A stretch of 64,000 nt of DNA from an uncultured Roseburia sp. Its GTDB lineage: Bacteria > Bacillota > Clostridia > Lachnospirales > Lachnospiraceae. Shown piece after piece: positions 11,921 to 43,609 of this stretch. The position numbers and the translations under genes are program-made. Location of the stretch: the NCBI GenBank assembly GCA_947644305.1, contig CANRYS010000002.1:186001-250000 (forward strand). Reading direction: 5' to 3'. Numbering within the stretch: the first letter of the stretch is position 1; each line of letters opens with the position of its first letter. The notes beneath the pieces were generated by a model that did not search any database, was not told the DNA's origin, and saw only the letters and a program-made list of their open reading frames with translations.

Positions 11921-14156
11921 ATGAAAAAGATCACAAAAAGGGTTATTGCGCTCTTAATTATGTTTTCAATGACTATCTGTTGCGTGATGGGTAATGAAAT
12001 GAATCCTGCCCATGCGGAAGAAACAAGTAAGAATTTAGTTGTTAAAGCAGAAAATAGTTTAAACGGCAGTATAGAAATGGAGATTTCTATAACAGCTTCC
12101 TGGGATAATCATTATAATGCTGATGTTACATTAAAAAATAAACTAGATGAAAAGATCGATAACTGGATGATTGCTTTTGATTTTAATAATAATATTGAAA
12201 ATATCTGGAATGCGAAAATTATTTCTCATGAGGAAGACCATTATGTAGTTAGCCTGACGATGCCAAATCGAACCCGCCGTGAATGGCGTATTTTGGCGAA
12301 CCACTTCGTTTTTCGTCCTTGTCTTGCGTCAGCAAGACTTCGTCCTCTAGCCTTGTTCTTCGCCAAAATACACCACACACGGTCGAAGATTTCAAACCAG
12401 TTATTTTGCGAATGCGAAGGCAGTTGAATGAGTCGTAGCGGTGGCTACGGCGATTGAAACTAACGAACGCATTTACAAAATAGCTGGTTAAGAAACGGGT
12501 TCGATTTGGCACCGTCAGGCTAAGAATGCAGATTGGAATCAGGATATACCAGTGAGGGGACAGATTACTTTTGGTATGACCGTTTCTTACGAAGAAGAAG
12601 TTTCCAATCTGACAAATTATTATGATGCTACGGATTTGATAGAAGTTGAACGCGATTATGATATTACATATACCCAGTTCACCCAATGGGACAATAAAAT
12701 CAATGGTCAAATAACAATTCAAAATAATTCGGAAGAGGATATAGAAGATTGGCGGCTTGAATTACTGAGTGATGTGGATTTTGACAATGTATGGAATGCA
12801 GAATTGTTGGAGTGTGCAGATGGATACAGTTATTTTGAAAATATGTCTTATAATCAAAATATCCCTGCCGGAGGTTCTGTTTCCTTTGGATTTATTGCCA
12901 CATGTGAAAAGGATCCTGATTTTTCTGAATATATATTGTATGAAATTGGAGAAGTACAGAAAGATTCTGCGGATGAGGACGAAGAAGAGGAAGAATATTA
13001 TGATGGTGATGTGATCTGGGGAGAGGAGGATTTTGAAAGTCCTGAAGACTATCAGGAGTATCTGAAGAGTATAGGTGGGTATGCACAGTATTCATTTAGG
13101 GATGATCGGATTATGACGCTTAACCTTGAGAAAGGTAAAGAATTGTATTGTGAATTAGAATGCCAAATCGATTCGATTCCAGATACCTATGCTATTATTG
13201 AGGGGCAAAATTCTATTGTTCTACAACTAAAAGGTAAGGCATTTCAAAATTTCTGTCTAACAGATAATTATTTGTATGCTACCCAACATGCAGGAGAGGA
13301 TACTTATTTACTTCGGTTTAAAAGAAATAAAGTGAAAGGAGAAAAGGCTGTTTTTAAAGATGCTATGCTGCTAGAGGGATTTGGGCATGGACAAAGTTTA
13401 CAGAAATTCACAGAAGGAAATAGTTCATATTTTCTATTGACTTGCCGTCCATTTTCTATTGCATCTGAAAAAGTTCCAAAAGGAATAAAAATCACTGATT
13501 GGGGAACTGAGATTGCTTGCATACAGTATAAAGGTAATACTATCATTAATTATGAAAATGATAAAGGTAAAAAATTTGGACTTATGAGAAATTTGGAGTA
13601 TGCCACAAATAAGGTTGATACGAAAACTAAAAAAAGAAAAAGTTTTGGTACAATAGTACGTGTTGATTTGGGTTTGTACTCTAATAAAACATTGATCCTT
13701 TGGAAAAGAAAAGCAAATATGGATATACAGATTGTTACATACAATTTCAAAGAAATGAAAAAACGCTTATCGATCGAAAATAAAATTATAGACTTTTCTG
13801 ATGAGAATATTAATACTAATGCCTATACATGTTTTAAAGGAAGAAAATTTGTTTCACCAAATGGTTCCATGCAAGGTATAGATATTTATGGTTCGGATAT
13901 ATATATAAGTTCTGGAGACCAGTGCAAGAGTATGAAATTATGTTTGTCCAGATTAAAAGTATCAAAGAAAAAGATAATTGGTATGAAGGATGAAATTAAG
14001 ATAAAAGAAATAGCAGAAATAGCAGCCGGCTCTAAAATGAATATGGAGGTTGAAGGAGTACAGATTACGAAGAAGAAAGTTTTTGTTTGTTTTACTCCAT
14101 GTAATCAAAACGTTGGAAGAAAATTACCACAATATATTATGTCTATTGACCGTTAG
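11921..14156 (+). pseudogene. Secreted protein with two CBM2-like domains, interrupted by a MITE-like element
   Basis: The N-terminal part (11921-12250) has a signal peptide (MKKITKRVIALLIMFSMTI, cleavage near AHAEE) and a beta-sandwich resembling cellulose-binding family 2 domains (ITASWDNHYNADVTL, NIENIWNAKI). The element at 12250-12522 breaks it; the frame resumes with KNADWNQDIP. Deleting the element plus one TA (271 bases) rejoins HYVV and KNADWN in frame, giving an ancestral protein of about 654 residues. The C-terminal part has a second CBM2-like domain, an acidic linker (DEDEEEEEYYD) and about 330 residues with beta-propeller-like features (QGIDIYGSDIYISSGD) faintly like helveticin-J proteins. 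That last assignment is uncertain. As it stands the product would stop within the element. Confidence 0.85.
12250..12522 (+). mobile_element. 269-bp palindromic MITE-like element, copy 1
   Basis: The element spans 12252-12520 and is flanked by TA on both sides. Its 25-bp terminal inverted repeats (GCCTGACGATGCCAAATCGA at the left end; right end 12496-12520) differ at one position. Inside are arm A (12277-12382, with GTATTTTGGCGAA pairing to TTCGCCAAAATAC and an apical GTCTTGC/GCAAGAC hairpin), a linker GGTCGAAGATTTC, and arm B (12395-12489, AACCAGTTATTTTGCGAATG pairing to its near complement, with apical CGTAGC/GCTACG). It encodes no protein. TA flanks suggest mobilization by an IS630/Tc1-type transposase, none of which is in the window. 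Confidence 0.85.
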
Positions 14157-14171
14157 GAAGAAGGAAATGGA

Positions 14172-15503
14172 ATGAAAAAAAATTATTTTACTGTATTGTT
14201 TGTTTTTTTCTGCATTCACATGATTTTATCCTGCCAGGACAGTTTTGCCGCCACAGAAGTGGCGGCTGGTTCCTGTGGTGACAACGTAACCTGGAGATTA
14301 ACGAGGGATGGGGTACTCAGTATAAGCGGGGAAGGGGAGATCACAGGCGGGACTTGGCAGCAAACAGACATCAAACCAAAGAAAGTTGTTATTGACGAAG
14401 GAGTGACATCCATTAGCGGCCGTTGGATATTTGGAGATGAAGAGATAGAAGAAATAACCATTCCTAATAGTGTAATTAAGATCGGGGATTGTGTGTTTCA
14501 GGGATGTGGTGTAAAAACACTAAGGATTCCGGACTCTGTGATAGAAATTGGAGAATATGCCTTTAGTAAATGTGAAAAATTAGAGCAGATCAGGTTGTCA
14601 GAAAATCTGAATACGATTAGCGCTCATATGTTTTCTTCTTGTTCTCGTCTAAAAAAGATAGAAGTACCAGATAGTGTGATATATATAGGTGAAGGTGCTT
14701 TCAGCAATATGGATTCTCTGGAAGAAATCGTTTTAGGAGGAGGATTACAAAAGGTTGGCGGGGCGATTTTTGAAAAATCTTACCGGCTTCGGAAAATTAT
14801 CAACCATTCATCGGTTATACTGAATATAAAAAATACCAAAACTGCAGTACAGAAGGTTATATGGTCTGCAGGTAGGAAAAGAACGGAGGTTGTTCCAGGA
14901 AATTGTGTTGCCATAGGAAAAGGGAAAAAATATAAGCTTTCTTATCGCCTGAATGGAGCAAAAGTGAAAGGAAAACTTCCGAAGAATTATAGGTATGGTG
15001 ATGTCGTTAAGTTTCCCGTAAAAGTAAGAAAAAAGGGATATATTTTTTCTGGTTGGAATGTTATTTCACCAGAAAATCAAAAAAAGGGAAAAAAGAGTTA
15101 TGGATTATATAGATGGGACGATCATTGTGAACTGGACAGTGTGCAGGAAACATGTGGCGATAAGATCGTGACGCCTCGATTCTACAAGATCTATATAACT
15201 AAAAGAAATAAAACTTCGGTCAATGTCAAAGTGGATATCAGTAAGAGCAATACCAAATATTTTCGATTTACTGCCCTTCGGTATTCTACGGATCCCAATA
15301 TGGGAACATACCGGGTAAAATACTCCTATCCATCGACGAAAACGTTAAAATCAGATTATGTTTTAAAAGGATTGAAAAAAAGGAAAAGGTATTATATTGA
15401 TGTAATGATGACGGATGATGACTGGTTCTTTGCGGATTACTGGGAAAATAAAAAGATTGATTATTTGCCGTGGGACGGTAGGAAAATATACCGTCATAAA
15501 TAG
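14172..15503 (+). CDS. Secreted BspA-like leucine-rich repeat protein with InlB-type repeat
   Basis: The 443-residue protein has a signal peptide (MKKNYFTVLFVFFCIHMILS, mature from about residue 27), then the segment TEVAAGSCGDNVTWRLTRDG and BspA/LRR_5 repeats (about 70-230), each around a (I)PDSV-I-IG--AF-- pattern. A Listeria-Bacteroides B-repeat follows (YKLSYRLNGAKVKGKLPKNY to KKGYIFSGWN, about 256-300), then a C-terminal domain ending WDGRKIYRHK. Such proteins are secreted or surface-attached and often bind host or cell-wall ligands; no sorting signal is visible. A paralogue follows 39 bases downstream. Confidence 0.85.
   Translation: MKKNYFTVLFVFFCIHMILSCQDSFAATEVAAGSCGDNVTWRLTRDGVLSISGEGEITGGTWQQTDIKPKKVVIDEGVTSISGRWIFGDEEIEEITIPNSVIKIGDCVFQGCGVKTLRIPDSVIEIGEYAFSKCEKLEQIRLSENLNTISAHMFSSCSRLKKIEVPDSVIYIGEGAFSNMDSLEEIVLGGGLQKVGGAIFEKSYRLRKIINHSSVILNIKNTKTAVQKVIWSAGRKRTEVVPGNCVAIGKGKKYKLSYRLNGAKVKGKLPKNYRYGDVVKFPVKVRKKGYIFSGWNVISPENQKKGKKSYGLYRWDDHCELDSVQETCGDKIVTPRFYKIYITKRNKTSVNVKVDISKSNTKYFRFTALRYSTDPNMGTYRVKYSYPSTKTLKSDYVLKGLKKRKRYYIDVMMTDDDWFFADYWENKKIDYLPWDGRKIYRHK
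14246..14341 (+). repeat. 96-bp near-identical patch, copy 1
   Basis: This stretch matches 15617-15712 with one mismatch, although the two genes are much more diverged on both sides. It begins at the signal-peptide junction and includes a perfect 8-bp hairpin, GCCGCCAC-AGAA-GTGGCGGC (14247-14266). Gene conversion or a recent recombination event is the likely cause. Confidence 0.85.
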
Positions 15504-15542
15504 TGGAACTTGATGATCGGTTTATCGTAAGGAGGAATATAA

Positions 15543-16859
15543 GTGAAACATAAGATCTGTCTTTTGTGTACTCTTTTTGTAGTCATAGCATGTTTTTGTC
15601 AGGGGACTACGAGCCTTGCCGCCACAGAAGTGGCGGCTGGTTCCTGTGGTGACAACGTAACCTGGAGATTAACGAAGGATGGGGTACTCAGTATAAGCGG
15701 GGAAGGGGAGATGAAACAGGGAGAATTTCTTCCAGAACCGTATGAAGGTATGCCAAAAAAAGTAGTTATCGGTCATGGTGTCACCAGTATTAAATTTCGG
15801 GCTTTTCCTTATGATAGTATTAAAGAAATCAGTATACCGGACAGCGTTGTGTCTATTGAGAGTGGAGCCTTTCAGAATTGCGGATTTGAGAAGATAATGA
15901 TTCCGGATTCGGTGGAGATGATTGGTGAAAATGCTTTTGAGGGATGTTCTGAGTTGAAAGAAATTCATTTGCCGGGGAATTTGAAGGTTATCAGAGGACG
16001 TATTTTTTCCGGATGCGTAAACCTGAGAACCCTGGTGATACCGGACAGCGTGGAAAAGATTGAACCGCTGGCATTTTACCGTGCTTATGGTCTTACAAAG
16101 GTGACAATTGGAAGAGGGGTAAAAGAAATAGGCAATAATATTTTTCTGGAAGCAGACCGAGTTCGGGAAATCAATAATCTTTCTGCGGTTTCTTTTGACA
16201 TAACCCAGACTGGAACAAAAATAGATCAGGTCAGCTGGTTTGTTAATGGAAAGCAAACGAAGAGTATCCTCCCTTTTAGTGTGGCACTTGGCAGGGGAAG
16301 AAAATACAAACTGTCCTATCAGCTAAATGGTGCAAAGGTGAAGGGAAAGCTTCCCAAATCTTATCGATATGGTGACATTGTGGAATTCCCAAGAAACGTG
16401 ACGAAGAAAGGATATATTTTTTCAGGATGGAACATTATTTCAAAGAAAAGATATCTGGCAGGCAAACGTTGCATGGGGCTTGAAGACTGTAAACTGGACA
16501 GCTTGTATGATACTCACGGAGACAGGATCATGATCCCGCGCTTTTATAAGGTGAAGATAAAAAGAAAGAATAGATCAAGCGCCCTTGTGACAGCGGATTT
16601 ATCCGAACTGGGTACTAGTTATTTTGGGACGATATTACTCTGTTACAGTGAGGCTGGAAAGGATAAAAAATACAAGGTTACATATCGTGAGGAAGATAAG
16701 CATAAAAAAGTAAAAATTGTAATGAAGAATCTAAAAAAGGGTAAGAAATATCAGGTAAAGTTTTTGTTGACTGACAGTTCCAGATACGATATGGACGGTG
16801 TAAAAAAAGTAGTGGGGGTACTGAAATTTGATGGGAGGAAAGTGTATAGGCATAGGTAG
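15543..16859 (+). CDS. Secreted BspA-like leucine-rich repeat protein, paralogue
   Basis: The 438-residue protein has the same architecture as its upstream neighbour: signal peptide (MKHKICLLCTLFVVIACF), the shared TEVAAGSCGDNVTWRL segment, LRR_5 repeats (for example IPDSVVSIESGAFQNCG), a B-repeat (YKLSYQLNGAKVKGKLPKSY to KKGYIFSGWN) and a matching C-terminus (FDGRKVYRHR). It starts at GTG with AGGAGG six bases upstream. The pair arose by tandem duplication, followed by strong divergence outside the 96-bp patch. Function is unknown; secretion is inferred from the signal peptide. Confidence 0.84.
   Translation: MKHKICLLCTLFVVIACFCQGTTSLAATEVAAGSCGDNVTWRLTKDGVLSISGEGEMKQGEFLPEPYEGMPKKVVIGHGVTSIKFRAFPYDSIKEISIPDSVVSIESGAFQNCGFEKIMIPDSVEMIGENAFEGCSELKEIHLPGNLKVIRGRIFSGCVNLRTLVIPDSVEKIEPLAFYRAYGLTKVTIGRGVKEIGNNIFLEADRVREINNLSAVSFDITQTGTKIDQVSWFVNGKQTKSILPFSVALGRGRKYKLSYQLNGAKVKGKLPKSYRYGDIVEFPRNVTKKGYIFSGWNIISKKRYLAGKRCMGLEDCKLDSLYDTHGDRIMIPRFYKVKIKRKNRSSALVTADLSELGTSYFGTILLCYSEAGKDKKYKVTYREEDKHKKVKIVMKNLKKGKKYQVKFLLTDSSRYDMDGVKKVVGVLKFDGRKVYRHR
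15617..15712 (+). repeat. 96-bp near-identical patch, copy 2
   Basis: This is the partner of 14246-14341, with a single G/A difference. The hairpin GCCGCCAC-AGAA-GTGGCGGC lies at 15618-15637, again at the signal-peptide junction. Confidence 0.85.
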
Positions 16860-16900
16860 GAATGTTGGTTTAAGACTAGGAGAAATAGGAGTATGAATAA

Positions 16901-18883
16901 ATGAAACGATTTCTTATTATGATAAAGCTATTTTTAAAAACCCCTGGTATCGTAATTCCTTTTGGCATTTTAGTGGCTTGCTGCAATGTGTTTTTATTTA
17001 AGTTGACCACCGGCTTCATTGCAAATGTTAGTAACCCATCAGCGATTAGCGACGCCATTTATTATTTTGGGGATATCAATTTATTATGTTTTCTTTTGTT
17101 TCTGTTTTGGATCTTTATTAGTTTTGAATTTATGCGAAAAGTAAAAGAAACACATATGGAAGAATTGTTGAATACATATGGAAGGAGCGGAAAATTAGTT
17201 TGTTTAGAGCAGGTGTGTGTGCTGGTTTTGGTAGCTGCTCTACTAGCCATAAACATATCTGTTTATTATATTGTGGCATGTGTTAGTTTGAGCGTATCTG
17301 ATCAGCTGACTGGGGAAGCGATCCGGCTATTGCTGGTGAATGTCTGGTGCCTCTCCTTTGGAGCCATCGGGATGGGATGTGTGCTGGCGAAAATTAAGAA
17401 ACGTTTTTTAGGATACGTGATAATGCTTGCAATTCTTTTTTTGATTCTTCCCAATACCGTAGATTTTTTTGGAATGCTGCAACGGGATTATTATATCCCT
17501 GTTTTCTTTGTTAGGGATCTGATCTGTCTTATTCCACCGGATATGTCAGCAGTAAATGATACCTTATATGGTTTTCCTACAGAAGCGTACCGTATGGCGG
17601 CGATGGGATTCTGGATTGTATTTGCCCTCCTGCTTTTTGCCTGGGAATTTTATAAAAACATCCCAAAGAGACGTTTCATTTCTTTGGCAGTACTGGTAGG
17701 ATTGTCAGGATTATTATTATATCAGGCAGAAGTAAAGGGAAGTGTTTTGCTGATGAAGGATCATCCAGAGGCTAGTTTAAATGAGATCGTAGATTATTAT
17801 ATAAAACATGAGGCAAAAGACGAAGCGGCGAATTTTGAAATTACAGAATATAATATAAACATGACTATGGGAAAAGAGTTAGAGGCAGAAGTTATTATGG
17901 ATTTACGTTCGCCAGAGAGAATGTCATGCTATCGTTTCACATTGTATCATGGGTATAAGATTAAAGGGGTGACAGATGGGGCGGGAACTCCCTTAGAGTA
18001 CTCCAGAGAAGGAGATTATTTGGAGGTTCAATCCCAGGGTGACAGCCTGTCGGAAATATGTATCGCCTATAAGGGACATAGTTCCAGCTTTTATGCAAAT
18101 AAGAAGGCTTGTTTTTTGCCAGGATTTTTTCCATATTACCCAAGGGCAGGATATCGAATGATTTATGATATCAATAAAAGGATATATGTGTCTCATAGGG
18201 ATGAAAAGGCGAAGTTCCATGTTACAGTTGATAAAGATCAAATGTTTAGTAATCTGAGGAAAGAGGGAAAGACATTTGAAGGAGTGGCTGAAAATCTAAT
18301 TCTGGTCAATGGATATTACAAGGAGACCAAAAGTGAAGGTAAACGGATGATAACATATCCTCTTTGTGAAAGTGAAGAACAGGGAATAAAAGAACGATTG
18401 AAGCAGCTTCCCACAGAGTTAGAAGAACTGCAGTCATTCTTGGGGATATCTGATCTGGAAACATCATTTCCCGAATTAATTGTAACAGTGCCAGGAAGTT
18501 TGGCGATGGCAAGTTCGGTGCAGAAATATTTTTCTTATGAAGATTATGCTCTTGTGTCTTCTGATACTGGGGCTTATGATATGTTAGAAGAGAAAATGCT
18601 GGAGAGCGGTATGGTCACAAAAGAGAAAAAACTTCTTTTTGATACCTTCTTTTCTATGCATATAGAAACTGATACGGATGTAGATATATTGGGATTATGG
18701 AAAGAAGAAGAAGGGTTTACCGGATACGAAACAAAGGAAATGGAATTAAGTGATTTTTTCGTTGAAAAAATAAGAAAGTATGGAGTTCAATATGTATCGA
18801 GCGAGATCATGCGTTATCTTTTGGACGAAAATAATCATATGGATTCCCTGGAATTCATAAAAAGATTGGAAAAGGGGGAGTAA
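16901..18883 (+). CDS. Large ABC-2-type membrane protein with extracytoplasmic domain
   Basis: The 660-residue protein has about six to seven membrane segments in residues 1-290 (for example IVIPFGILVACCNVFLF, FLGYVIMLAILFLILP), then a soluble region of about 370 residues. In ABC-2 permeases of this shape the soluble part often resembles an M1-like peptidase fold; I see no intact HExxH, so no peptidase activity is claimed. The ATPase gene begins four bases after its stop and a second permease follows, so the three probably form one exporter. The locus follows a LytTR system and secreted proteins, suggesting peptide export or self-protection (inference). Confidence 0.7.
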   Translation: MKRFLIMIKLFLKTPGIVIPFGILVACCNVFLFKLTTGFIANVSNPSAISDAIYYFGDINLLCFLLFLFWIFISFEFMRKVKETHMEELLNTYGRSGKLVCLEQVCVLVLVAALLAINISVYYIVACVSLSVSDQLTGEAIRLLLVNVWCLSFGAIGMGCVLAKIKKRFLGYVIMLAILFLILPNTVDFFGMLQRDYYIPVFFVRDLICLIPPDMSAVNDTLYGFPTEAYRMAAMGFWIVFALLLFAWEFYKNIPKRRFISLAVLVGLSGLLLYQAEVKGSVLLMKDHPEASLNEIVDYYIKHEAKDEAANFEITEYNINMTMGKELEAEVIMDLRSPERMSCYRFTLYHGYKIKGVTDGAGTPLEYSREGDYLEVQSQGDSLSEICIAYKGHSSSFYANKKACFLPGFFPYYPRAGYRMIYDINKRIYVSHRDEKAKFHVTVDKDQMFSNLRKEGKTFEGVAENLILVNGYYKETKSEGKRMITYPLCESEEQGIKERLKQLPTELEELQSFLGISDLETSFPELIVTVPGSLAMASSVQKYFSYEDYALVSSDTGAYDMLEEKMLESGMVTKEKKLLFDTFFSMHIETDTDVDILGLWKEEEGFTGYETKEMELSDFFVEKIRKYGVQYVSSEIMRYLLDENNHMDSLEFIKRLEKGE

Positions 18884-18887
18884 ATGG

Positions 18888-19577
18888 ATGCTTAAGGTAA
18901 AACATGTAAAGAAGAACTTTGGAAAAAGAAAAGTTTTAGATGATATCTGTTTGGAATTGGAAAATGGATGCTATGGCTTGCTGGGTCCGAATGGTGCAGG
19001 AAAAACTACATTGCTCCGTTGTATTTTGAAATTGTATCCAATAAAAGAGGGACAAATCAGTACAGAAAATAAGAACATAGGATATCTTCCTCAAAAATTT
19101 GGAGTGTTCCAGGAATTGACGGTATATGATATATTGTATTATTTTTCTACCTTAAAAAAAGTTCCAAAAGAAGAGCGGGATGACGAAATTGATCGGGTGC
19201 TTTCTCTGGTAAATCTGGAAGACCGGAAAAAAGAGAGAATGAGTCGTTTGTCTGGGGGTATGCTGCGCAGGGTTGGAATTGCCCAGGCGATATTAGGAGA
19301 CCCGGAGATTCTTTTCTTTGATGAACCAACAGCGGGGCTGGATCCGGAGGAAAGGGCTAGATTTAAAAGATTAGTGAAAAAGATTATGGAGGGCAAAATT
19401 GTTATTATTTCTACGCATATAGTCGAAGATGTGGAATCATTATGCGATCGGGTTATTATTATGAATCAGGGAAAAATTCTGGAAAATGTAACGGTGGATG
19501 AGGCATGTCGATTTGCTGGGTCGGAAGCTAATGCCAATCTGGAAGCCGGATATCTGGCACGAGTACAAGGAGATTGA
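18888..19577 (+). CDS. ABC transporter ATP-binding protein
   Basis: The 229-residue ATPase has Walker A GPNGAGKTT, Q-loop YLPQKFG, signature LSGGMLRR, Walker B ILFFDEPTAGLDPEE and switch histidine STHIVED. It is closest in style to ABC-2 exporter ATPases (CcmA/NatA-like). The start has a GGGGGAG site overlapping the end of the upstream permease gene. It provides the energy for the permeases encoded on either side. Confidence 0.93.
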   Translation: MLKVKHVKKNFGKRKVLDDICLELENGCYGLLGPNGAGKTTLLRCILKLYPIKEGQISTENKNIGYLPQKFGVFQELTVYDILYYFSTLKKVPKEERDDEIDRVLSLVNLEDRKKERMSRLSGGMLRRVGIAQAILGDPEILFFDEPTAGLDPEERARFKRLVKKIMEGKIVIISTHIVEDVESLCDRVIIMNQGKILENVTVDEACRFAGSEANANLEAGYLARVQGD

Positions 19578-19582
19578 CACGT

Positions 19583-20230
19583 ATGATTTCATTACTTTGG
19601 GTAAGGATGCGGAAGCGAAAAGCCATAATGGTTATTCCAATTTTCATCTTAGGGATATTTGTGCCGATTATGTGTCATTATTTTTCGGTACGATATGTGG
19701 AGGAACCAGAACGAATTGTTGAAGAGATAATTGCTCTTTTACATACTTGTATACCTATGGCGGGATGTTGGTGGATCATTCTTTTGTATCAGGATTTTTT
19801 TGTATGGGAGGGAAATGAACTTCTATATTATTATCATTCCTGGAGACAGCTAATAAAAGAATATATATTTGTTATGGCAGTTTATGCAGGGATATCTGGT
19901 TTCATCGCTTTTTGCATACAACAAACAATAGACTTCCCGCTTTTTGTAATTGGACAGCTGAGCGTTGAGACCGTTTTTATTGCCTCACTAACTTTATTTT
20001 CTTCTTTCCTTTTGCAAAATACAGGAGGGAGTTTATTGATTGTTATTGCATATTGTGTATACTTAAATCACTTTGATTCCCTGGGAATATTTCAGTTTAT
20101 GTCTGTGTTTCCCCGGCGTGAGGAATTTCTAAATTTCAACGTTGGATTACTGCGAAATGCTCTGGTCAGCTCAGGAATAATGAGTGTATTAGGAAGTGCA
20201 TGCATAGGTTGGCGCAGAGGATATAAATAA
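19583..20230 (+). CDS. Hydrophobic membrane protein, probable second permease of the ABC exporter
   Basis: The 215-residue protein has about six membrane segments (for example AIMVIPIFILGIFVPIM, LLIVIAYCVYLN). I do not recognise a named family. ATG 19583 has AGGAG ten bases upstream and is preferred to the TTG at 19574, which overlaps the ATPase stop. Its place directly after the ATPase gene and before a terminator makes it the last gene of the exporter operon. Confidence 0.7.
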   Translation: MISLLWVRMRKRKAIMVIPIFILGIFVPIMCHYFSVRYVEEPERIVEEIIALLHTCIPMAGCWWIILLYQDFFVWEGNELLYYYHSWRQLIKEYIFVMAVYAGISGFIAFCIQQTIDFPLFVIGQLSVETVFIASLTLFSSFLLQNTGGSLLIVIAYCVYLNHFDSLGIFQFMSVFPRREEFLNFNVGLLRNALVSSGIMSVLGSACIGWRRGYK

Positions 20231-20290
20231 AAGAATGTTTGAAAATGGAGTGTAGGATTTGGTGGATGAGTTTACATCGTTAGGCTAGAA

Positions 20291-20332
20291 GACAGAAAAG
20301 GCATATGCAGAGGGAGCATATGTCTTTTTTTG
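20291..20332 (+). terminator. Rho-independent terminator after the ABC operon
   Basis: GGCATATGC (20300-20308) pairs with GCATATGTC (20316-20324) around a 7-base loop, followed by TTTTTTTG; the flanking GACAGAAAA and TTTTTTTGTC extend the stem. It ends the accessory plus-strand block. Confidence 0.88.
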
Positions 20333-20350
20333 TCTAGATCGTCCATAAAA

Positions 20351-35110: not shown

Positions 35111-35884
35111 ATGGGAAATATTTTGTCATTTCGTCATATATCCTATTCCTACCACAGTGTAAACGGAGAAACCCTCGCTTTAGATGATCTGAGTTTTGAT
35201 GTGAAAGACGGAGAATTTCTCGCTGTCGTCGGTCCAAGCGGCTGCGGTAAATCCACCCTGCTTTCTATTATTGCCGGCCTGATTGAGCCGGATTCCGGAG
35301 AGGTTTTGATTGAAAATACACAGCGGGATAAATCGGGTGTGAACATCGGTTACATGCTTCAGAGGGATCATCTTCTGGACTGGAAAAATACCTGGCAGAA
35401 TGCGGCGCTGGGATTATCAATTCAGAAGAAAAACTGGGACGGGGACAAAATCATGCTGCTGAATCATCTGTTTCAGACCTATGGCCTGGTGTCTTTTGAA
35501 AAGGCAAAGCCATCGGAGCTCTCCGGCGGCATGCGTCAGAGAGTTGCCCTGATCCGTACACTGTTGATGGAACCGGACCTGCTTCTTCTGGATGAACCAT
35601 TTTCTGCACTGGACTACCAGACCAGACTGGAGGTTTCGGACGATATCTGGAAGATTATAAAAAAAGAAAAAAAGACGGCGATCCTTATCACCCATGATAT
35701 TTCGGAAGCCATCAGTATGGGGGATCGGGTTCTGGTCCTTACCTCAAGACCGGCGAAGTTGAAAAAAGAGATCTGTATCGACCTCAGCTATGAGGGGGAG
35801 ATCACTCCGTTCAAGGCGAGAAGTACACCGGAATTTCAAAATTATTTCAATGAAATATGGGAGGAATTGAACGGTGGAAAATAA
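35111..35884 (+). CDS. ABC transporter ATPase, SsuB/TauB/NrtD type
   Basis: The 257-residue ATPase has Walker A GPSGCGKST, signature LSGGMRQR, Walker B LLLLDEPFSALD and switch histidine ITHDISEA. It belongs to the importers for sulfonate, nitrate or pyrimidine precursors. The frame is open to 35063, but ATG 35111 with GGGGAGG six bases upstream gives the correct N-terminus. It overlaps the permease gene by 11 bases. No binding protein is encoded nearby. Confidence 0.9.
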   Translation: MGNILSFRHISYSYHSVNGETLALDDLSFDVKDGEFLAVVGPSGCGKSTLLSIIAGLIEPDSGEVLIENTQRDKSGVNIGYMLQRDHLLDWKNTWQNAALGLSIQKKNWDGDKIMLLNHLFQTYGLVSFEKAKPSELSGGMRQRVALIRTLLMEPDLLLLDEPFSALDYQTRLEVSDDIWKIIKKEKKTAILITHDISEAISMGDRVLVLTSRPAKLKKEICIDLSYEGEITPFKARSTPEFQNYFNEIWEELNGGK

Positions 35885-36701
35885 CATTTCGATCCGAAAA
35901 TTAAAACGTAGTCTTTCTGGAGACGTATCGCATCGCCAGCGGGAATTTATCCTTTCCTGTATTCGTCAGAAACGGAAGGTGAGGATACTCCAGATCAGCA
36001 TATTTATTCTTTTTATTCTGGTCTGGGAGGTGACCGCTCATTTTGGGTTCATTGATCCCTTTGTCTTCAGCAGTCCCTCCCGAATGGCAGAATGTTTCCT
36101 CCAGCTCTCGGCAGACGGGAGCATTTACTATCATATCGGGGTGACGTTGTTTGAAACCTTTTTAAGCTTCTTTTTTATCATGTTTTTTGGAATACTCATT
36201 GCCATCTTGCTCTGGTGGAATGAAACGGTGGCAAAGGTGAGTGAGCCCTATCTGGTGGTGCTGAACAGTCTGCCCAAGACAGCCCTTGCTCCGGTGTTTA
36301 TCGTCTGGCTGGGAAATAATATGAAGACCATTATAGTAGCTGCAGTATCAGTAGCTGTCTTCGGAAGTATTATCACACTGTTTACAGCCTTTTGTTCTGT
36401 GGAAGAGGAAAAGATCAAGCTGATCCGCACGCTGGGAGGAAACCGCATCGATATACTGCGCTATATTGTCCTTCCAGGAAATGCTCACACCATCGTCAGC
36501 AATATGAAGGTCAATATTGGACTGTCCCTGGTGGGTGTCATTATCGGTGAATTTCTCGCTGCCAATGCCGGGCTTGGCTATCTGATCGTATATGGAAGCC
36601 AGGTGTTTAAACTGGATTATGTGATCTTAAGCATTGTGATCCTGTGCATTGTGGCGACAGGGCTTTACAAAGGGCTGGAGGCTCTGGAAAAACACTGGTG
36701 A
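35874..36701 (+). CDS. ABC transporter permease, SsuC/TauC type
   Basis: The 275-residue permease has about six membrane segments and the BPD_transp_1 coupling helix around VEEEKIKLIRTLGGNRIDIL, followed by LPGNAHTIVSNMKVNIGLSL. It starts at GTG inside the ATPase gene, so the two are translationally coupled. Without a binding protein here, the substrate is unknown; a partner gene elsewhere is likely. A strong terminator follows. Confidence 0.9.
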   Translation: MENNISIRKLKRSLSGDVSHRQREFILSCIRQKRKVRILQISIFILFILVWEVTAHFGFIDPFVFSSPSRMAECFLQLSADGSIYYHIGVTLFETFLSFFFIMFFGILIAILLWWNETVAKVSEPYLVVLNSLPKTALAPVFIVWLGNNMKTIIVAAVSVAVFGSIITLFTAFCSVEEEKIKLIRTLGGNRIDILRYIVLPGNAHTIVSNMKVNIGLSLVGVIIGEFLAANAGLGYLIVYGSQVFKLDYVILSIVILCIVATGLYKGLEALEKHW

Positions 36702-36723
36702 AATCATAAAATTTTTATGAAGG

Positions 36724-36770
36724 AAAAGTCTGACAAACGCCTTTAAATAGCTGTTTTGTCGGACTTTTTT
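36724..36770 (+). terminator. Rho-independent terminator after the ABC importer
   Basis: AAAAGTCTGACAAAC (36724-36738) pairs with GTTTTGTCGGACTT (36753-36766), one wobble, and is followed by TTTTGC. It ends the importer operon. Confidence 0.88.
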
Positions 36771-36862
36771 GCGTGTGTGGTTGGAGGCAGGAAAAAAGAC
36801 AGAGCGGAACCCCGTATTTTTTTGTTGAATTATGCGTAGAAATATGGTAGCATTACCCAAAA

Positions 36863-36952
36863 TGGCTAAAACAGTGAGCTGGTAAAGCTACGAAGTAGCA
36901 ACAGCCCGGTGTTTTAGTCATGAAATATTTGTGCCGCCTCTGGCGGCATATT
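36863..36952 (+). promoter_or_regulatory. Structured 5' leader upstream of the M60 peptidase
   Basis: TGGCTAAAACA (36863-36873) pairs fully with TGTTTTAGTCA (36910-36920), allowing one G-U. Inside, GCTG/CAGC and GCTAC-GAA-GTAGC stack into a long bulged hairpin. A second GC-rich hairpin TGCCGCC-TCT-GGCGGCA follows (36932-36948), 26 bases before the start codon, with a short weak T-run. The arrangement looks like an aptamer plus an expression hairpin. I do not recognise a known riboswitch class. Confidence 0.45.
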
Positions 36953-36974
36953 TAGAAAGAAAGGAAGCGAGAGA

Positions 36975-39900
36975 ATGAGGAGATTAATTGCTATTCTGCT
37001 CACCGGATGTCTGGCCTTTCAGACCTGGGCAGCGGCGGCTGTTCCGGCAAGCGCCGGTTCCAAAACAGGAAAGACAGCCATAGAGAGCAGTGAAAATTCG
37101 AATCGTGAAAGTGTGTCACAGACAGAGAGCGGACTGGAAGTAGAAATCCGGTCTTCCCGCCTGTTCCCTTTTCAGGGAAAGGCAACGATACAGATCCGTG
37201 GCGGAGAGGTAGAAGAATCCAAAGAGCTGCACTTTGGCGGTTCTGATGCAGCCTCAGAAACCCAGCGGTTTGATGTCCCCCAGGGAGATTACACCGTTAC
37301 GATTAAGTCTGATAAATTTGCTGACTACAAACAAAAGGTTCAGGTGTCCAAGGGCTGGGTGTCAAAGATTCAGGTCTGGGCAGCCAGGTATGAGAATGGA
37401 AGAGGTGCCAGTCCTGGATGGATCCGTCAGGGAGACATCAATGGGGATGGCGTGATTGACCAGAAGGACACCGAACTGATGTTGTCAGCGGTCCGAGAAG
37501 ATCCGAAAAAAAGCGATACCGATCTGAACCAGGATGGATATACGGATCTGGTGGATCTGCAGAACATGGTTCAGGGAATCGATGAAACACAGGAATCCAA
37601 TATCGAAAAGCTGGCGCTTCTCAGAAAAGTTCAGGCTGTCGGAGGAACAACGGTAGAGGGAAGCATGGAATCCTTTCTCAGCCGTTCCGAAGGCATTGTT
37701 TTAAAACCATCGGATGCCAGTGCTGCGATCTCAGCCAGTAATCCAGTGACCCTTGAATTTACATTAGCAGAGGACGGGGCACAGGATACCGCAGATATCC
37801 CAAAGATACAGGGGATCGCCATTCATGCGCCGATGAAAGCGGAAGAAGGCGAAGATGTCTCCAGTGAGATTGTGGATGGAGAAGCACAAGTGGTTGCCGT
37901 GGATGAGAAGGGGAATGAACAGGAATTGACGCTTCCTCTTGCCTCAGAATCGAAGCGGAGTATGTCATTAAAGGCCTATTCGGCGGATCCGAAGGTTCAT
38001 ATGGATGCAGATGGTTCACTGATCCTGGATTTCGGAACCCAGATCGCTGTTAAGAGAGTGACGATCAAAATCACCGGTACAAGAAAAACTGAGCCGCTGG
38101 TTAATCTGGCGAAAGTGGAGTTTGTCAACAACATGGAAGACCGCATCGCTCCTCCACAGCTAGATATTCCGACATTAAATGCACCGGTATCGGACAATAT
38201 GGCTTTAACCGTGACCTGGAGTGCACAGACCAATATCACAGGTTATGAAGTCTATGTGTCTGGTCCGGTGAAAGGCCAGACAGAGAATGAGACACAGATT
38301 GTTCGTGTCTCTGATACAGTACATACGATCAGCGGGATCAACGATAAAAAGCTGATCAATTATGAAAAATATAAAATAAAGGTACGTTCGGTAAATGGGG
38401 ATTGGAAGAGTCCCTGGTCCAATGAACAGACCGGAATTCCTAAACCTCAGAAGCTGCCGGCACCTCCAGATTATGTTAAGGCAGAAGGGGGATACCGCTC
38501 CATCAGCGTGTCATGGAAGGACATGGACGATGCAGACGGTTATATGGTATATTATAAAAAGTCAACAGATACAGAATTTAAGCCGGTGGTGGAGGATTTC
38601 CAACCAGTACAGGCAGGAACCGGAAAGCTGAAAGATGCCCACTATGTGATTTCCGGTCTGGAGGACAATGTAGAGTATTCGGTTTATGTCATAAGCTGGA
38701 ATGAGCTGGGATGGGGCAAGGCTTCCCTTGTATCCTCGGCAGTCACAAAGGATGATGGGCCGCCTCAGCTTCCGACGTATAAACTTTTAAATACCTCCAA
38801 AGGCGAGGGTGTATTGAGCGACCACATTGTAAATGCAACAATCGGTGGAAGTGGGGGGGCCAAGATGGTTAGCAGCCCATTGGATACATCTGCTGGCAGT
38901 GCTTTGGGACTGGTAGATAATAATTTTGGCTCCTATTGGATCAAATCTGACTGGGATGACGGAGTCGCTTATCCAAGTCTTGGCAAGGGAATGATCATTA
39001 CACTGGATAATGATTATCCAATGAACTATATGACTTTTGCAGCCGCCGATCAGAAGACCTCGGTGGACGTTGTGAGGATTGGATACTGGAACAAGGAAAA
39101 TCCAGATAAAGAGCAGATTGTAAACGCCCGCCTGATTCAGAAAAAAGATGAAAATAATAATCCTTATTATATCGTAAAATTTGACGGTGCTATCACAGCG
39201 AATAAGATCCACATGTGCCTTGGCAGAAGCTGGGGAGGTTCTGGAGATCTCATGGTAGGGGAGATACATTTTCACAAATATGATTCCCTGGAAGATGATA
39301 TCATGAGACTGTATGAAGATGAAATGCATACGACTTTGCGCAAAGATGTGACGGAAGCCACCATCGCTGCTTTGGAAGAAAGGCTCAATACGATAGACGC
39401 GGAGAGCGGAGAGAAACATCCGCTGTTTCAGGAGCTGACTCTGGAGATCAAGACAGCAAGAGAGATATTGAATTCCAAGCTGGATCCTTCTCTTGAAGTG
39501 GATAACAGGATCACATCGCAGAAGGATAAACATCTTGGCTTTAGCGGCTTAAATCCATGGCAGCCGTTAGGAAAGACCGCCTACGCCGGTGAGACACTTC
39601 TTGTTTATGTGGGGCACAACACAAAGAGAACCGGAGATTCCACGAATCTTCAATTGATCGTGACCCAGCATCACGCAGAGGCAAATAGTCTTGCCAAAGG
39701 GATCAATCTAAAGATAGGAAGAAATGAGATCACGGTTCCGCAGCTCACTTCCAATACATTTGAGAGGGGCGGACAGCTCTACGTCGCTTACACTGGAAAC
39801 AATTCTTCTGACCAGTATGCTGTTCGAATCAGCGGCGGAAGCAGTATACCAGTATTAAACGTCTATGGGAAGACTGGCAATGAGCGGACGGAGGCGATCC

Positions 39901-42191
39901 GTGCGTATGTAAAACAGCTTGAGAGCTATGTCAATACGATTCAGCCAGGACATGAGGAAAAACATACTGGCACAAAAAATGTAGATTATGATTACGATGT
40001 AACAAACTGTATTCTGAATGCGACGGATATCATGATGAAGGATATGATGTATTCGGTTCCCGCCACACAGGTCTGGGCAGCGATCAAGAATGCAGAAGAC
40101 AAGACAGAAAAATTAGATCATTCCTTGAAGGCAATGGAAGATACGATGACGTTGTTCTACCAGCACAAGGGCCTCAGTGATGACGCAGGTACCAAGAGAG
40201 GCAACAATGCTCTTCCTGTACAGCATCTGAATATACGTTACATGAGAATGTTCGCTGGCGCTTTTATGTATGCCTCCGGCAACCACATAGGAGTGGAGTG
40301 GGGATCTACCACACTGGCAGGCGGACCGAATGACTGGTCTGGTTTCGGATGGGGTGTTGCCCATGAGATCGGCCATAATATCAATCAGGGAACCTATGCG
40401 GTGGCAGAGATCACCAACAACTATTTTGCACAGCTTCTGACGAAGACGCCAGGAAAGACCAGATTCCAATATCCTAAGGTGTATGAAAAGGTGACCTCTG
40501 GAACCATTGGCCGCTCTTCCAATGTGAGTACGCAGTTGGCATTATACTGGCAGCTCCATCTGGCATTTGATAATCATACGGATGACAGACATATCTTTGA
40601 TGATTATGAAGAACAGTTTAATAACCTCTTCTTCGCCCGTGTGGATACTTATTCCAGAAACCCTGATAAAGCACCGCAGTCAGGTTTGTCATTGAAGGGA
40701 GGTACGGACCAGAATCTTATGCGTCTCGCCTGTGCCGCTGCGAACAAAAATATTCTACCATTTTTCCAACGTTGGGGAATGGTGCCGGATGAGGAAACCA
40801 AGGCTTACGCTCAAAAATACGGAGAAGCAGAGACAAAGGCATTGTATTATGTAAATGATGATGCCAGAGATTACCGCGCAGCCCATACCGGCGAAGAGGG
40901 AACGATTTTGAATCAGGATGTGGTAACTGCCACTGTGGCGGCGAAATCAAACCAGGTAGAGGTTACCATTGCAACAGAACAGAACAAGGATCTGATACTC
41001 GGTTATGAGATTCTTAGAAGTATGACCTCAAATGGAAAAAAAGAGAAGAAAGTAGTTGGCTTCCAGCCAATTGACACCGCTCAGAACACGGTATATGTGG
41101 ATTCCATTTCCTCCATAAACAACAGAGTTATGGAGTATGAGGTACGGGCTGTGGATAAGTATCTGAACTATTCCAATTCGGTTCAGGCGGGATCTGTCAA
41201 GATCCAGACAGATGGTGTGCTGGATAAAACGGAATGGACGGTTGAAACCACTATGACATCGGAGGATGATGTGGCGATTGATTCGGATATCGAAGATCCT
41301 GACAGTGGGTATCACGCAGAAGATCCGGGCAGCATCGGTGAAAAGAAAGTGCACAGCATCGACCGGATTCTCGATCAGGACAGAACAGAGGCAGGAACCT
41401 ATCACGGAATAAGCGAAGGAAACGCAGTGATCACTATCGATATGCATAAGACCGAGCAGGTAACAGCATTGAAATATCAGGGAGATGCCCTGACCGGGAT
41501 GACCATTGAGGTCAGTCAGGATGGAACTGCGTGGACAGCAGTAAAAGAAGGTTATGCAGGATTGTCCGGAACCGGGGAACAGACCGTGTGGTTTGATTCT
41601 GTGAAGGAAGATTTAAGAGACAGTTGGATCGGTACCTACGATGCCAGATATGTGAGAATGACCATTCCGCAGTCCGGCGAGATTGCCATCCAGGAGATCG
41701 AGATATGCGGACCATCGGGAGACAATCTGGAATTTATGAAAGCGGAAGAAAATACGCCGGCAGTTGGCGTGCTGACAGAAGACTATAAGTACGGCAGCCA
41801 GGATTCAGATGTGATCAAAAAAGGCTCTTTGATATTTACAGGAACCTATAAAGGAAATCCTGCTTACAATGTTGTTGTATTATACGATACAGAAGGAAAT
41901 GTAATTGGTGCAAAAGAGGACGCGGTTCAGGCAGGTCAGGTTATTTTTGCCGATGTGCCGGAGCAGGGAAATCTTGGCGAGACCTCAAACGGAACATGGG
42001 TATACTACGTGGAGCCCGGTCAATGGGATGCCGCTTCTCTGCAGAAGATCAAAGGAGTTCGCGGTGAGCTTTACCGTGTGGACGATGCTCTGACGTTAGA
42101 AGGAGAGCGCATCGTCAGTGATACTCAGATGATTCAGCTTCCGGATTTTCTGCCGGATATTACATTAACAGGATCTGGATACGGATCTTGA
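36975..42191 (+). CDS. Secreted M60-like zinc peptidase with dockerin, FN3 and discoidin domains
   Basis: The 1738-residue protein has a signal peptide (MRRLIAILLTGCLAFQTWAA), a type I dockerin (about 153-205; calcium loops GDINGDGVIDQKD and DLNQDGYTDLVD), two FN3 domains (about 395-600) and a discoidin-like region (about 610-780). The M60/enhancin-like domain (about 860-1290) has gluzincin site H1130-E-I-G-H1134 and third ligand E1145. Further FN3-like and F5/8C-type domains follow (about 1450-1590). M60 enzymes cleave heavily glycosylated proteins such as mucins. There is no sorting signal, so attachment probably uses the dockerin. A small secreted gene follows directly. Confidence 0.9.
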   Translation: MRRLIAILLTGCLAFQTWAAAAVPASAGSKTGKTAIESSENSNRESVSQTESGLEVEIRSSRLFPFQGKATIQIRGGEVEESKELHFGGSDAASETQRFDVPQGDYTVTIKSDKFADYKQKVQVSKGWVSKIQVWAARYENGRGASPGWIRQGDINGDGVIDQKDTELMLSAVREDPKKSDTDLNQDGYTDLVDLQNMVQGIDETQESNIEKLALLRKVQAVGGTTVEGSMESFLSRSEGIVLKPSDASAAISASNPVTLEFTLAEDGAQDTADIPKIQGIAIHAPMKAEEGEDVSSEIVDGEAQVVAVDEKGNEQELTLPLASESKRSMSLKAYSADPKVHMDADGSLILDFGTQIAVKRVTIKITGTRKTEPLVNLAKVEFVNNMEDRIAPPQLDIPTLNAPVSDNMALTVTWSAQTNITGYEVYVSGPVKGQTENETQIVRVSDTVHTISGINDKKLINYEKYKIKVRSVNGDWKSPWSNEQTGIPKPQKLPAPPDYVKAEGGYRSISVSWKDMDDADGYMVYYKKSTDTEFKPVVEDFQPVQAGTGKLKDAHYVISGLEDNVEYSVYVISWNELGWGKASLVSSAVTKDDGPPQLPTYKLLNTSKGEGVLSDHIVNATIGGSGGAKMVSSPLDTSAGSALGLVDNNFGSYWIKSDWDDGVAYPSLGKGMIITLDNDYPMNYMTFAAADQKTSVDVVRIGYWNKENPDKEQIVNARLIQKKDENNNPYYIVKFDGAITANKIHMCLGRSWGGSGDLMVGEIHFHKYDSLEDDIMRLYEDEMHTTLRKDVTEATIAALEERLNTIDAESGEKHPLFQELTLEIKTAREILNSKLDPSLEVDNRITSQKDKHLGFSGLNPWQPLGKTAYAGETLLVYVGHNTKRTGDSTNLQLIVTQHHAEANSLAKGINLKIGRNEITVPQLTSNTFERGGQLYVAYTGNNSSDQYAVRISGGSSIPVLNVYGKTGNERTEAIRAYVKQLESYVNTIQPGHEEKHTGTKNVDYDYDVTNCILNATDIMMKDMMYSVPATQVWAAIKNAEDKTEKLDHSLKAMEDTMTLFYQHKGLSDDAGTKRGNNALPVQHLNIRYMRMFAGAFMYASGNHIGVEWGSTTLAGGPNDWSGFGWGVAHEIGHNINQGTYAVAEITNNYFAQLLTKTPGKTRFQYPKVYEKVTSGTIGRSSNVSTQLALYWQLHLAFDNHTDDRHIFDDYEEQFNNLFFARVDTYSRNPDKAPQSGLSLKGGTDQNLMRLACAAANKNILPFFQRWGMVPDEETKAYAQKYGEAETKALYYVNDDARDYRAAHTGEEGTILNQDVVTATVAAKSNQVEVTIATEQNKDLILGYEILRSMTSNGKKEKKVVGFQPIDTAQNTVYVDSISSINNRVMEYEVRAVDKYLNYSNSVQAGSVKIQTDGVLDKTEWTVETTMTSEDDVAIDSDIEDPDSGYHAEDPGSIGEKKVHSIDRILDQDRTEAGTYHGISEGNAVITIDMHKTEQVTALKYQGDALTGMTIEVSQDGTAWTAVKEGYAGLSGTGEQTVWFDSVKEDLRDSWIGTYDARYVRMTIPQSGEIAIQEIEICGPSGDNLEFMKAEENTPAVGVLTEDYKYGSQDSDVIKKGSLIFTGTYKGNPAYNVVVLYDTEGNVIGAKEDAVQAGQVIFADVPEQGNLGETSNGTWVYYVEPGQWDAASLQKIKGVRGELYRVDDALTLEGERIVSDTQMIQLPDFLPDITLTGSGYGS

Positions 42192-42204
42192 TATGGAGGT
42201 AAAC

Positions 42205-43359
42205 ATGAAAAGAATCATATTATTCTTCGTGGCAGTACTAGTTCTTGCTGCCACGGTGCCCACGGCTGCCAACGCGGCAGGAACCGGCAGTGGTACGCTT
42301 AGCGTAGACAAAAATAATGTGTCTGTGTCGCTGGCCATACCAGGGGGAAAGACAAAGACCATCACGTCCCTGCGTGTGCAGCTTCGGGTGTCAGTCACCA
42401 GTGGTACGATGGATCAGCCGGATTTCACCTTTGACTCTTCGATTCCAAGTACCGTGAAAAGTGCTGCGATCAAAAAAGACGGCAGCGCCTATATGGTGGA
42501 TATCATTTTGTCAGGGAAAAAGAATCAGGATATATTCAAAAACAGTGAGAATGCCAAACTGGGAATTCTGTCCTTGAAGCCCACCAGCACAGATTATCAG
42601 ATCAAGGTGGAATTTGCGGGTAAAACGGATGGAAGTAATGCCCCCGTTATAAAGTATGCGGAAAGCAGCAGTCTGTCAGAGGTGACACTTACGATGTCCC
42701 ATGCCCTTCCGGTGACAGTGGGATCTACAGCGCAAGTGAACGCTCCGCCTTCTGGAAAGACTATGGGGAAACCAAAATTGACTGCCACGGTAAAAAAAGG
42801 TAAAAACCGCGTCTATTTCAAGTGGAACAAGATCAGTGGCGCCAGTGGATACAGGCTTTATCGATACGATGAAAAAACGAAAAAGTACAAGAAGATAAAG
42901 ACGATCACCAAAGGAGGAACAACGTCCTATTCTAAAAAGTATGGTTATGCTTCCTCCCATCGTTTCCGGATTCGCGCATTTAAAACAGAGGCGGGTGGAG
43001 CAAAGACTTATAGCAGCTACAGTTCGACTGTTAAGGTTACGGTGCCGCCGACTAAGGTGAAAAAGTTCTCGGCGGAATACTGGAGCGACGGAAAGGCTGC
43101 CCTCCTGTGGAAGAAGGTCAGCAAGGCAAAAGGCTATCAGATCTATCGGAGCAAGAAAAAGAGTGGAAAATACCTTCGCGTAAAAACGATTCGAAAGGGC
43201 AAGATCACCAAATGCACCAGTGTAAAACACAAACTCGGCAAAACCTATTATTACAAGATCAGAGCTTATGTTACCGGTGCGGATAAAAAACGTGTTTATG
43301 GTAAATTTAGTGTGGCGGTGCCATACAAAAATAAGGGTAGCTCGACAGCGCCAATTTGA
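42205..43359 (+). CDS. Secreted protein with N-terminal beta domain and two FN3-like domains
   Basis: The 384-residue protein has a signal peptide (MKRIILFFVAVLVLAATVPT, cleavage near ANAAG), a beta-rich domain (about 28-165; GTLSVDKNNVSVSLAIPGGK onward) with a weak cohesin-like look, then two lysine-rich FN3-like domains (about 190-285 and 290-378). ATG 42205 has TGGAGG six bases upstream, beginning 14 bases after the M60 gene, so the two are cotranscribed. The last residues SSTAPI and the stop codon lie inside the palindromic element at 43338; without it the protein would end KGKQ. Cohesin identity is unproven. Confidence 0.72.
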   Translation: MKRIILFFVAVLVLAATVPTAANAAGTGSGTLSVDKNNVSVSLAIPGGKTKTITSLRVQLRVSVTSGTMDQPDFTFDSSIPSTVKSAAIKKDGSAYMVDIILSGKKNQDIFKNSENAKLGILSLKPTSTDYQIKVEFAGKTDGSNAPVIKYAESSSLSEVTLTMSHALPVTVGSTAQVNAPPSGKTMGKPKLTATVKKGKNRVYFKWNKISGASGYRLYRYDEKTKKYKKIKTITKGGTTSYSKKYGYASSHRFRIRAFKTEAGGAKTYSSYSSTVKVTVPPTKVKKFSAEYWSDGKAALLWKKVSKAKGYQIYRSKKKSGKYLRVKTIRKGKITKCTSVKHKLGKTYYYKIRAYVTGADKKRVYGKFSVAVPYKNKGSSTAPI

Positions 43360-43609
43360 ACCCTGTTTCGTTCTGCGCTAGCAGCAAAATAGCGTTGTTG
43401 CTTTCATTCGATGATGTCACCACATCACCTCATTCAAGCGCCTAGCTATTTTGCTGCTATCACAATCCGAAATCTTCGACCTCCGCTTGTGATTTTCCAA
43501 TTTACAAGGAAACGGAATGAAACGTACTGGAGGTACGTTGATTGACGTTGACGTAGAAAATTGGAAAATCACAAGCGGAGGCAGGGTTCAAATTAGCGCC
43601 GTTGAGCTA
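43338..43609 (-). mobile_element. 268-bp palindromic MITE-like element, copy 2 (reverse orientation)
   Basis: The element spans 43340-43607 between TA dinucleotides. Terminal inverted repeats of 26 bases (43340-43365, 43582-43607) resemble copy 1, sharing the GAACCC core. Read on the minus strand it has arm A (a perfect 24-bp stem, CCTCCGCTTGTGATTTTCCA and onward, apical AACGTAC/GTACGTT), linker GGTCGAAGATTTC (43469-43481) and arm B (TAGCAGCAAAATAGC stem, apical GATG/CATC). Order, linker and loop motifs match copy 1, while stems differ. Removing it plus one TA restores a GGT-AAA-CAA-TAG gene end. Confidence 0.85.

Follow-up and report, generated by a model that had tools for sequence, protein, structure and literature searches.

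Introduction

Bacterial miniature inverted-repeat transposable elements (MITEs) are commonly regarded as short-lived wrecks, with their ends as the defining part. The stretch of DNA analyzed here, 64,000 nucleotides of an uncultured Roseburia sp. (assembly GCA_947644305.1, contig CANRYS010000002.1, positions 186,001 to 250,000; in the following, the window), contains two palindromic elements that raise the question whether the ends or the folded inside are maintained. A preliminary description had proposed that both elements share a two-armed fold with differing but still pairing stems, and that this reflects selection on folded RNA or single-stranded DNA (ssDNA). We find the usual picture reversed: it is the ends that vary, and the inside, which covaries strongly, is conserved in many genera and in a second phylum. 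We consider it rather probable that these are non-autonomous MITE-like elements of the IS630/Tc1-mariner kind, carrying a selected, strand-specific fold that acts as RNA. As non-coding mobile elements with a folded functional part of their own, they would be open to test.

Results

Two elements of the window share one fold

The two intervals proposed previously leave out the TA that flanks each element on both sides (Table 1). The GAACCC terminal stem, the CCTTGT of arm A and the linker GGTCGAAGATTTC were located at the places given for them, and the arm B internal loop TTGAATGAG opposite CGA(T/A)TGAAA is present in both elements. Folded as RNA, element 1 reaches -139.1 kcal/mol (z -13.4) and element 2 -145.9 kcal/mol (z -16.2), and none of the 200 dinucleotide shuffles of either was that low. 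In a two-sequence alignment the minimum-energy folds, with 98 and 105 pairs, have 60 pairs in common; sliding one fold by 1-3 columns against the other leaves only 0-16. Among the common pairs 22 are changed on two sides, 3 on one side and 35 are identical, so that the stems indeed differ and still pair.

Within a palindrome, template switching can transfer a change between the arms. Therefore, compensation between two copies of a palindrome alone is no proof of selection on the fold. Likewise, the suggestion that loops are kept while stems vary is weak when drawn from the two window copies: identity is 36/55 in jointly unpaired columns versus 73/120 in common paired columns, which is hardly different, and the contrast needs many relatives.

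A conserved core recurs across genera and in a second phylum

The recurring part is a folded core that corresponds to arm B of both window elements. Among the 397 genomes of Lachnospiraceae, the family of the window, a strict pattern of the linker plus TGAATGAG was found in only 1; sequence patterns therefore miss the element family. The covariance-model search of these genomes that had been suggested for a check was more productive. Model R1, built from nine arm sequences with Streptomyces excluded, matched 61/397 genomes (57/334 genera) at a cut-off of E 0.01, and it also recovered 4/4 of the first Streptomyces loci (E 1.3e-7 to 6.4e-6). Model R2, built from 45 sequences (alignment A3) that include Streptomyces and the window, matched 24/398 genomes in a phylum search at E 0.001, three of them uncertain, as the core there was not located by sequence. 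The uncertain loci (L389, L392, L394) and L396 were omitted from the 28 phylum loci, leaving 24. The ends of the 28 are TAG...CTA in 14, TA in 3, other end pairs in 7 and none in 4. The covariance model is ready for annotation.

Relatives found by pattern carry the labels Roseburia, Lachnoclostridium, Eubacteriaceae and uncultured Clostridia. A pattern scan of a genome collection returned 18 stretches, 12 of which are elements by reading and fold; L097, L103, L104, L105, L108 and L110 seem to have matched by chance. Among Streptomyces plasmids the one-arm query matched 9 records, and Streptomyces queries matched 29 and 58 records. Exact-pattern scans of viral contigs gave 0 matches, and the one-arm query had no match in phages. 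Further copies are thus abundant among relatives, as they are in the window's own genome (see below). Judged by these matches, the element family is spread from gut bacteria to soil Streptomyces, its outer sequence free and its folded core much alike. A core conserved under changing outer sequence suggests a function of the fold itself.

Relatives commonly take the form of a one-arm hairpin, 162-164 bp long. Of 70 loci, 35 have exact TAG...CTA ends, 24 of these one-arm, and 12 yielded no end pair; some of these 12 run into a contig end. Of the 24 one-arm elements with exact ends, 20 have this length; two-arm elements measure 272-279 bp. One-arm ends are preceded by C in 20/24 and followed by G in 16/24, which gives a CTAG-like target, a pattern that is not seen for two-arm elements. 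As a curiosity, L192 (G340) is a one-arm element with an inner TAG...CTA repeat (117 bp) within a longer, nearly perfect palindrome.

Covariation and non-canonical pairs in the core

Alignment A3 consists of 45 chosen sequences. Hand picking for variety took 29 rows from the arm set, which numbers 68 after L166 was dropped; of the 20 Streptomyces loci, six whose cores diverge (L357, L361, L362, L367, L370, L371) were omitted. Compensated changes occur at 25/26 consensus pairs, and 93.8% of cells are paired. The covariation score is 0.786, compared to a mean of 0.236 for shuffled alignments, none of which reached it (0/500), and slid partners score at most 0.143; deriving the structure from these very sequences favors it somewhat. 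The covariation that the preliminary description expected is strong in A3.

Between the covarying pairs lie tandem G.A/A.G mismatches: 42-66 is G.A in 45/45 sequences, 43-65 A.G in 37, 39-69 A.G in 44 and 38-70 G.A in 43. Positions 35/36 with 72/73 are GA/GA in 25 sequences, and most of the others have Watson-Crick pairs there. The U.U at pair 41-67 changes to G-C or C-G, and changes here track the pairing register, not the direct-repeat register. Inspection by eye of L361, L362, L370 and L371, all from Streptomyces, revealed that AAGGC...CAACGC is retained and the G.A array is turned into ordinary base pairs.

The core strand carries an excess of G.T mismatches

A duplex palindrome alone would predict equal numbers of G.T and A.C mismatches on a given strand. 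We counted them in 65 arms (49 one-arm and 16 two-arm elements), since 3 of the 68 were near contig ends and were omitted. On the core strand of the 49 one-arm elements the G.T:A.C ratio is 98:32 (35 elements versus 5, with 9 ties). It is 27:5 in 20 Streptomyces elements (15 versus 2) and 56:8 in the 24 retained phylum-search loci (20 versus 1, with 3 ties; one locus comes from the window's family). Outer stems beyond the coverage of R1 gave 37:10 in 37 elements, and at the 26 pairs of A3 we found 115 G-U versus 23 A-C. A larger two-arm set of 37 elements, 24 of which belong to the window's own genome or its pattern-found relatives, showed 48:19 for arm B and 36:19 for the terminal stem. A mutation bias of the element that acts on one strand may also produce the G.T excess. 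A first, energy-based strand count was not used as evidence, as the energy model is built such that the sense strand is favored.

Taken together, covariation, strand asymmetry and the conservation of non-canonical pairs support selection on a single folded strand, the core strand. The earlier claim of selection on folded RNA or ssDNA is thereby upheld, albeit through strand asymmetry and non-canonical pairs and not through two-copy compensation.

The orientation relative to replication is a weak lead. Sense-strand GC skew is negative in 42/56 loci outside genome G262 and in 9/26 within it; by batch, 31/40 loci were negative in the first, a strong bias, and 12/19 in the next (not significant), while the bias is absent among the 26 G262 copies (9 negative), 3 of which are also loci of the first 40-locus set.

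Ends resemble those of IS630-type transposons

The elements are MITE-like, flanked by TA and without a transposase gene. In 12/23 one-arm elements the ends resemble IS630-type ends at 14 or more of 19 positions. The comparison used 13 IS630 end strings from 9 loci, and transposon and element need not share a genome. For each of the 12, 0/200 shuffles reached the score, in a test that is slightly lenient because the best of two element ends was set against shuffles of one end. An example of a matched IS630 end is TAGTGTACTGACACATTGATAT; four of the 12 match a second type (L311, TAGTATAGCAAATATTAAG). Elements with the same core thus match IS630 ends of two types, L306/L310-like and L311-like. 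The elements of the window's own species have the ends TAGCTCGACGG.

IS630-family (DDE_3) matches occur in 6/19 and 6/23 element-bearing genomes of two sets. The core is absent from 22 loci with DDE_3 matches, some of them overlapping, in a comparison of the core alone and not of other transposon parts. With IS630-family transposons lacking the core, the one-arm interior does not appear to be a remnant of a parent transposon. Because 12/23 one-arm ends match those of core-less IS630 transposons, we infer that the MITE-like elements, with variable ends and a conserved inside, are moved in trans by IS630-type enzymes. A Y1 transposase as mobilizer was rejected, as it is present in 12/20 bearing and 14/20 non-bearing genomes. 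Y1 thus does not track the element, which also speaks against membership in the REP/RAYT or IS200/IS605 (Y1) groups.

The two-arm plan appears to be an inverted pair of cores

R2 matches both arms, on opposite strands, in 11/11 copies of subfamily 2 and in 6/6 two-arm elements of other genomes. Since this includes both arms of element 2, whose arm A is outside the training rows, element 2 reads as an inverted pair of the one-arm core. More generally, the matches describe the two-arm plan as an inverted core pair, one copy of which would have decayed or been replaced in subfamily 1, element 1 included.

Two 213-bp elements, L326 (G262:C24:61267-61479) and L327 (G262:C34:31839-32051), carry within the core a hairpin insert of about 50 bases centered on TGTGCCAGYGGCACA; a similar insert is found in a decayed copy of the window's own genome (L008). 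Two facing G262 copies were considered as a compound transposon. The frame between them reads, by eye, like a MarR regulator; the copies were therefore taken as separate insertions and the candidate was rejected.

Element 1 interrupts a gene

The left piece of the gene that is split by element 1 terminates within a CBM_2 domain of 101 profile positions (Table 1). When the gene is rejoined, keeping one TA gives a frame that stays open for 310 codons, whereas no TA or two TAs close it; the remaining two frames of the right flank hit stops after 10 and 33 codons. This result fits a duplication of the target TA and falls short of proof.

Table 1. Coordinates of the two elements, their parts and the interrupted gene in the window.
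Feature	Coordinates	Strand	Remarks
Element 1, two-arm, subfamily 1, with TA on each side	12250..12522	+	inside CBM_2-containing gene; 12252-12520 without TAs
Element 1, left terminal inverted repeat GCCTGACGATGCCAAATCGAACCC	12252..12275	+	
Element 1, arm A	12276..12380	+	not matched by R2 at E 1; the core is either lost or too diverged
Element 1, linker GGTCGAAGATTTC	12381..12393	+	
Element 1, arm B (conserved core, + strand)	12390..12497	+	R2 78.9 bits; among the 45 training rows
Element 1, right terminal inverted repeat GGGTTCGATTTGGCACCGTCAGGC	12497..12520	+	
Element 2, two-arm, subfamily 2, with TA on each side	43338..43609	-	43340-43607 without TAs
Element 2, arm A (second core, opposite strand)	43479..43585	+	R2 64.7 bits, E 4.8e-16; outside the training rows
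Element 2, linker GGTCGAAGATTTC	43469..43481	-	
Element 2, arm B (conserved core, - strand)	43364..43471	-	R2 71.6 bits; among the 45 training rows
Interrupted gene, left part	11921..12249	+	ends in CBM_2 profile positions 3-54
Interrupted gene, right part	12523..14156	+	another CBM_2 further on; in-frame join needs exactly one TA kept

Discussion

A probable mobile element with a selected fold

How would such an element work? In the reading that we consider rather probable, a transposase made elsewhere would cut and paste the elements via their TAG...CTA ends. On one strand the core would form a long rod broken by tandem G.A/A.G pairs, with one core in the 163-bp form and two inverted cores in element 2, and the fold of the core strand would be under selection. 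The core would act as RNA, produced by read-through or from its own promoter, and the RNA rod might bind a protein or resist RNases and so help the element to persist or move. Protein binding that aids persistence or movement is our best guess for the role of the RNA. The preliminary description had placed the elements beyond a simple transposon end; this is right in that the core has a conserved fold, yet they are nevertheless transposable elements of the MITE kind with TA ends. A further-reaching idea, which we regard as possible and toward which we lean less than not, makes the folded core itself the heritable unit: a selfish structured RNA (or ssDNA), present in at least two phyla, that swaps its ends to suit the IS630-type transposase of the host, with the two-arm elements as a dimeric branch. 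It would be a bacterial counterpart of short interspersed elements (SINEs), riding on a DNA transposase.

Several results weigh against an IS630-mobilized element with a functional RNA fold. No transcript of the element was seen. The ends of 11/23 one-arm elements match none of the IS630 ends tested, DDE_3 is absent from 13/19 and 17/23 bearing genomes of the two sets (G000, the window's own genome, G322, G223, G299 and G316 included), and among the matches listed for the own genome and G322 none is a two-arm end pair at transposon spacing; in these genomes and lists no mobilizer of the two-arm form, which is that of both window elements, was found. In some of the omitted Streptomyces loci ordinary pairs replace the G.A array, and the G.A counts are those of chosen rows. 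The strand asymmetry was lacking for two-arm arms in the first test (9:10) and for arm A in the 37 two-arm elements (23:21); moreover, the elements are related, so that counts are not independent and p-values overstate the case. In subfamily 1 the core is confined to arm B, with arm A giving 0/7 matches. A useful read-through RNA predicts that the sense strand runs along genes, while the skew is negative in 42/56 loci outside G262 and in 9/26 inside. At the insertion site, the right remainder of the split CBM_2 (first 47 residues) alone is not recognized by Pfam. The empty-site frame test gave a mixed outcome: a long open span was found at 10/37 loci, which were open with only one TA in 4 (the window included), with only both in 3, with only none in 1 and with several in 2. 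This mixed result on TA duplication leaves the odds of the main claim unaffected, because that claim rests on ends and fold.

The strand-specific fold with its tandem G.A pairs would also suit ssDNA, and DNA can form tandem G.A pairs as well. The core strand would then be a hairpin that arises in replication or excision and is recognized by a transposase or a host enzyme, like attC or IS200/IS605 ends. A long palindrome of near-constant length (the 20/24 at 162-164 bp) and the skewed replication orientation of the 42/56 loci outside G262 point in this direction. We nevertheless judge it rather unlikely. The presence of Y1 transposases does not follow that of the element, G262 with its many copies lacks such an orientation, and a frequent G-U state at several pairs is more usual for RNA. 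Judged by GC skew, the sense strand would also fall on the leading-strand template and not on the exposed lagging-strand template. RNA is therefore preferred over ssDNA because of the frequent G-U at several pairs, the lack of a Y1 link and the lack of a consistent replication orientation. A plain double-stranded DNA MITE, in which stems are kept paired by template switching and the conserved letters are protein sites in duplex DNA, is already disfavored, and we regard it as improbable. TA flanks and the homogenization that palindromes undergo would agree with it, as would the absence of strand asymmetry in arm A; solo palindromes and an arm-A-deleted form at four sites (see below) imply that arm A and linker are dispensable for movement. 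Homogenization and duplex binding are strand-blind, but in three separate sets the core strand has more G.T than A.C, the internal G.A mismatches stay while their neighbors change, and changes in the motif halves obey the pairing register (41-67) and not that of a direct repeat.

The reading to which we assign the lowest probability has the RNA serve the host: copies next to genes would be host-selected terminators or signals for mRNA processing and stability, as proposed for Correia and ERIC. The hairpins are strong and 0 of 40 loci lie inside a called frame, and excerpts of PMC10969869 and PMC2229807 provide precedents. The distribution is patchy, however, with 61/397 genomes; the window copy was inserted in a gene, many copies occur in one genome, two of which were compared and are identical, and conservation across phyla would better fit a role that serves the element.

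Relation to known elements

Rfam 15 gave 0 matches for the whole window at gathering thresholds. With permissive settings element 1 had three matches far below gathering scores, and nothing matched over the core in 7 relatives or in 4 Streptomyces loci. The core has a hammerhead-like look (tandem GA beside a stem), an assignment that was dropped as there is no Rfam match. No description of the element was seen in searches of open-licence papers. The earlier statement that no named family has this plan agrees with the Rfam and literature results, but two arms plus a linker are not unique by themselves, as CIR of Caulobacter demonstrates.

In integron attC sites and IS200/IS605 ends, structure rather than sequence is conserved and one strand is active. 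The present element is like them in its conserved structure and single active strand, a comparison of how things work. It differs by its TA flanks and IS630-like ends, and no Y1 link was found; integrases were not searched.

According to excerpts of PMC2229807, RUP of Streptococcus pneumoniae is 107 bp long, targets TA and has IS630-like ends. This IS630-Spn1 MITE resembles our element in being a short repeat with a TA target and ends like those of an IS630 transposon. Unlike RUP as described there, the present core is conserved across families and in a second phylum while the ends vary. Excerpts of PMC10969869 and PMC2229807 report stable stem-loop transcripts, with effects of RNase III for Correia and of RNase E for ERIC. 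Correia/NEMIS (TA ends) and ERIC are thus alike in part, also in their stable stem-loops, but they are set apart by description, having other hosts and, in these excerpts, no mention of a tandem G.A core. In CIR, a linker connects two arms, each a long inverted repeat, and GANTC is exposed at an arm loop (PMC2229807, in excerpt). The two arms and linker are shared, whereas GANTC was not seen by eye in the linkers or arm loops of the window. A survey of RNA candidates from the human microbiome lists, in the excerpt of PMC8040213, 250 palindromic among 3161 candidates, and the present element could sit unnamed among them.

Copies in the genome of the window

A DNA search of the window's own genome found 18 near-full copies, 7 of subfamily 1 and 11 of subfamily 2, and many fragments besides. 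Several contigs of this assembly (L070, L071, L074, L075, L077, L078) terminate inside an element, so that these copy numbers are lower bounds; the repeats are a possible reason for such contig ends. L065-L068 have the same deletion of arm A and linker at four different sites, and this shared deletion makes it probable that the short form has moved as well. The genome also contains a one-arm element (L399, G000:C4:128054-128163). Finally, palindromes made of just two terminal repeats, about 45-60 bp long, occur beside full elements (L015, L017, L019 and in G322), the three in the own genome being solo end-to-end palindromes of ~52 bp.

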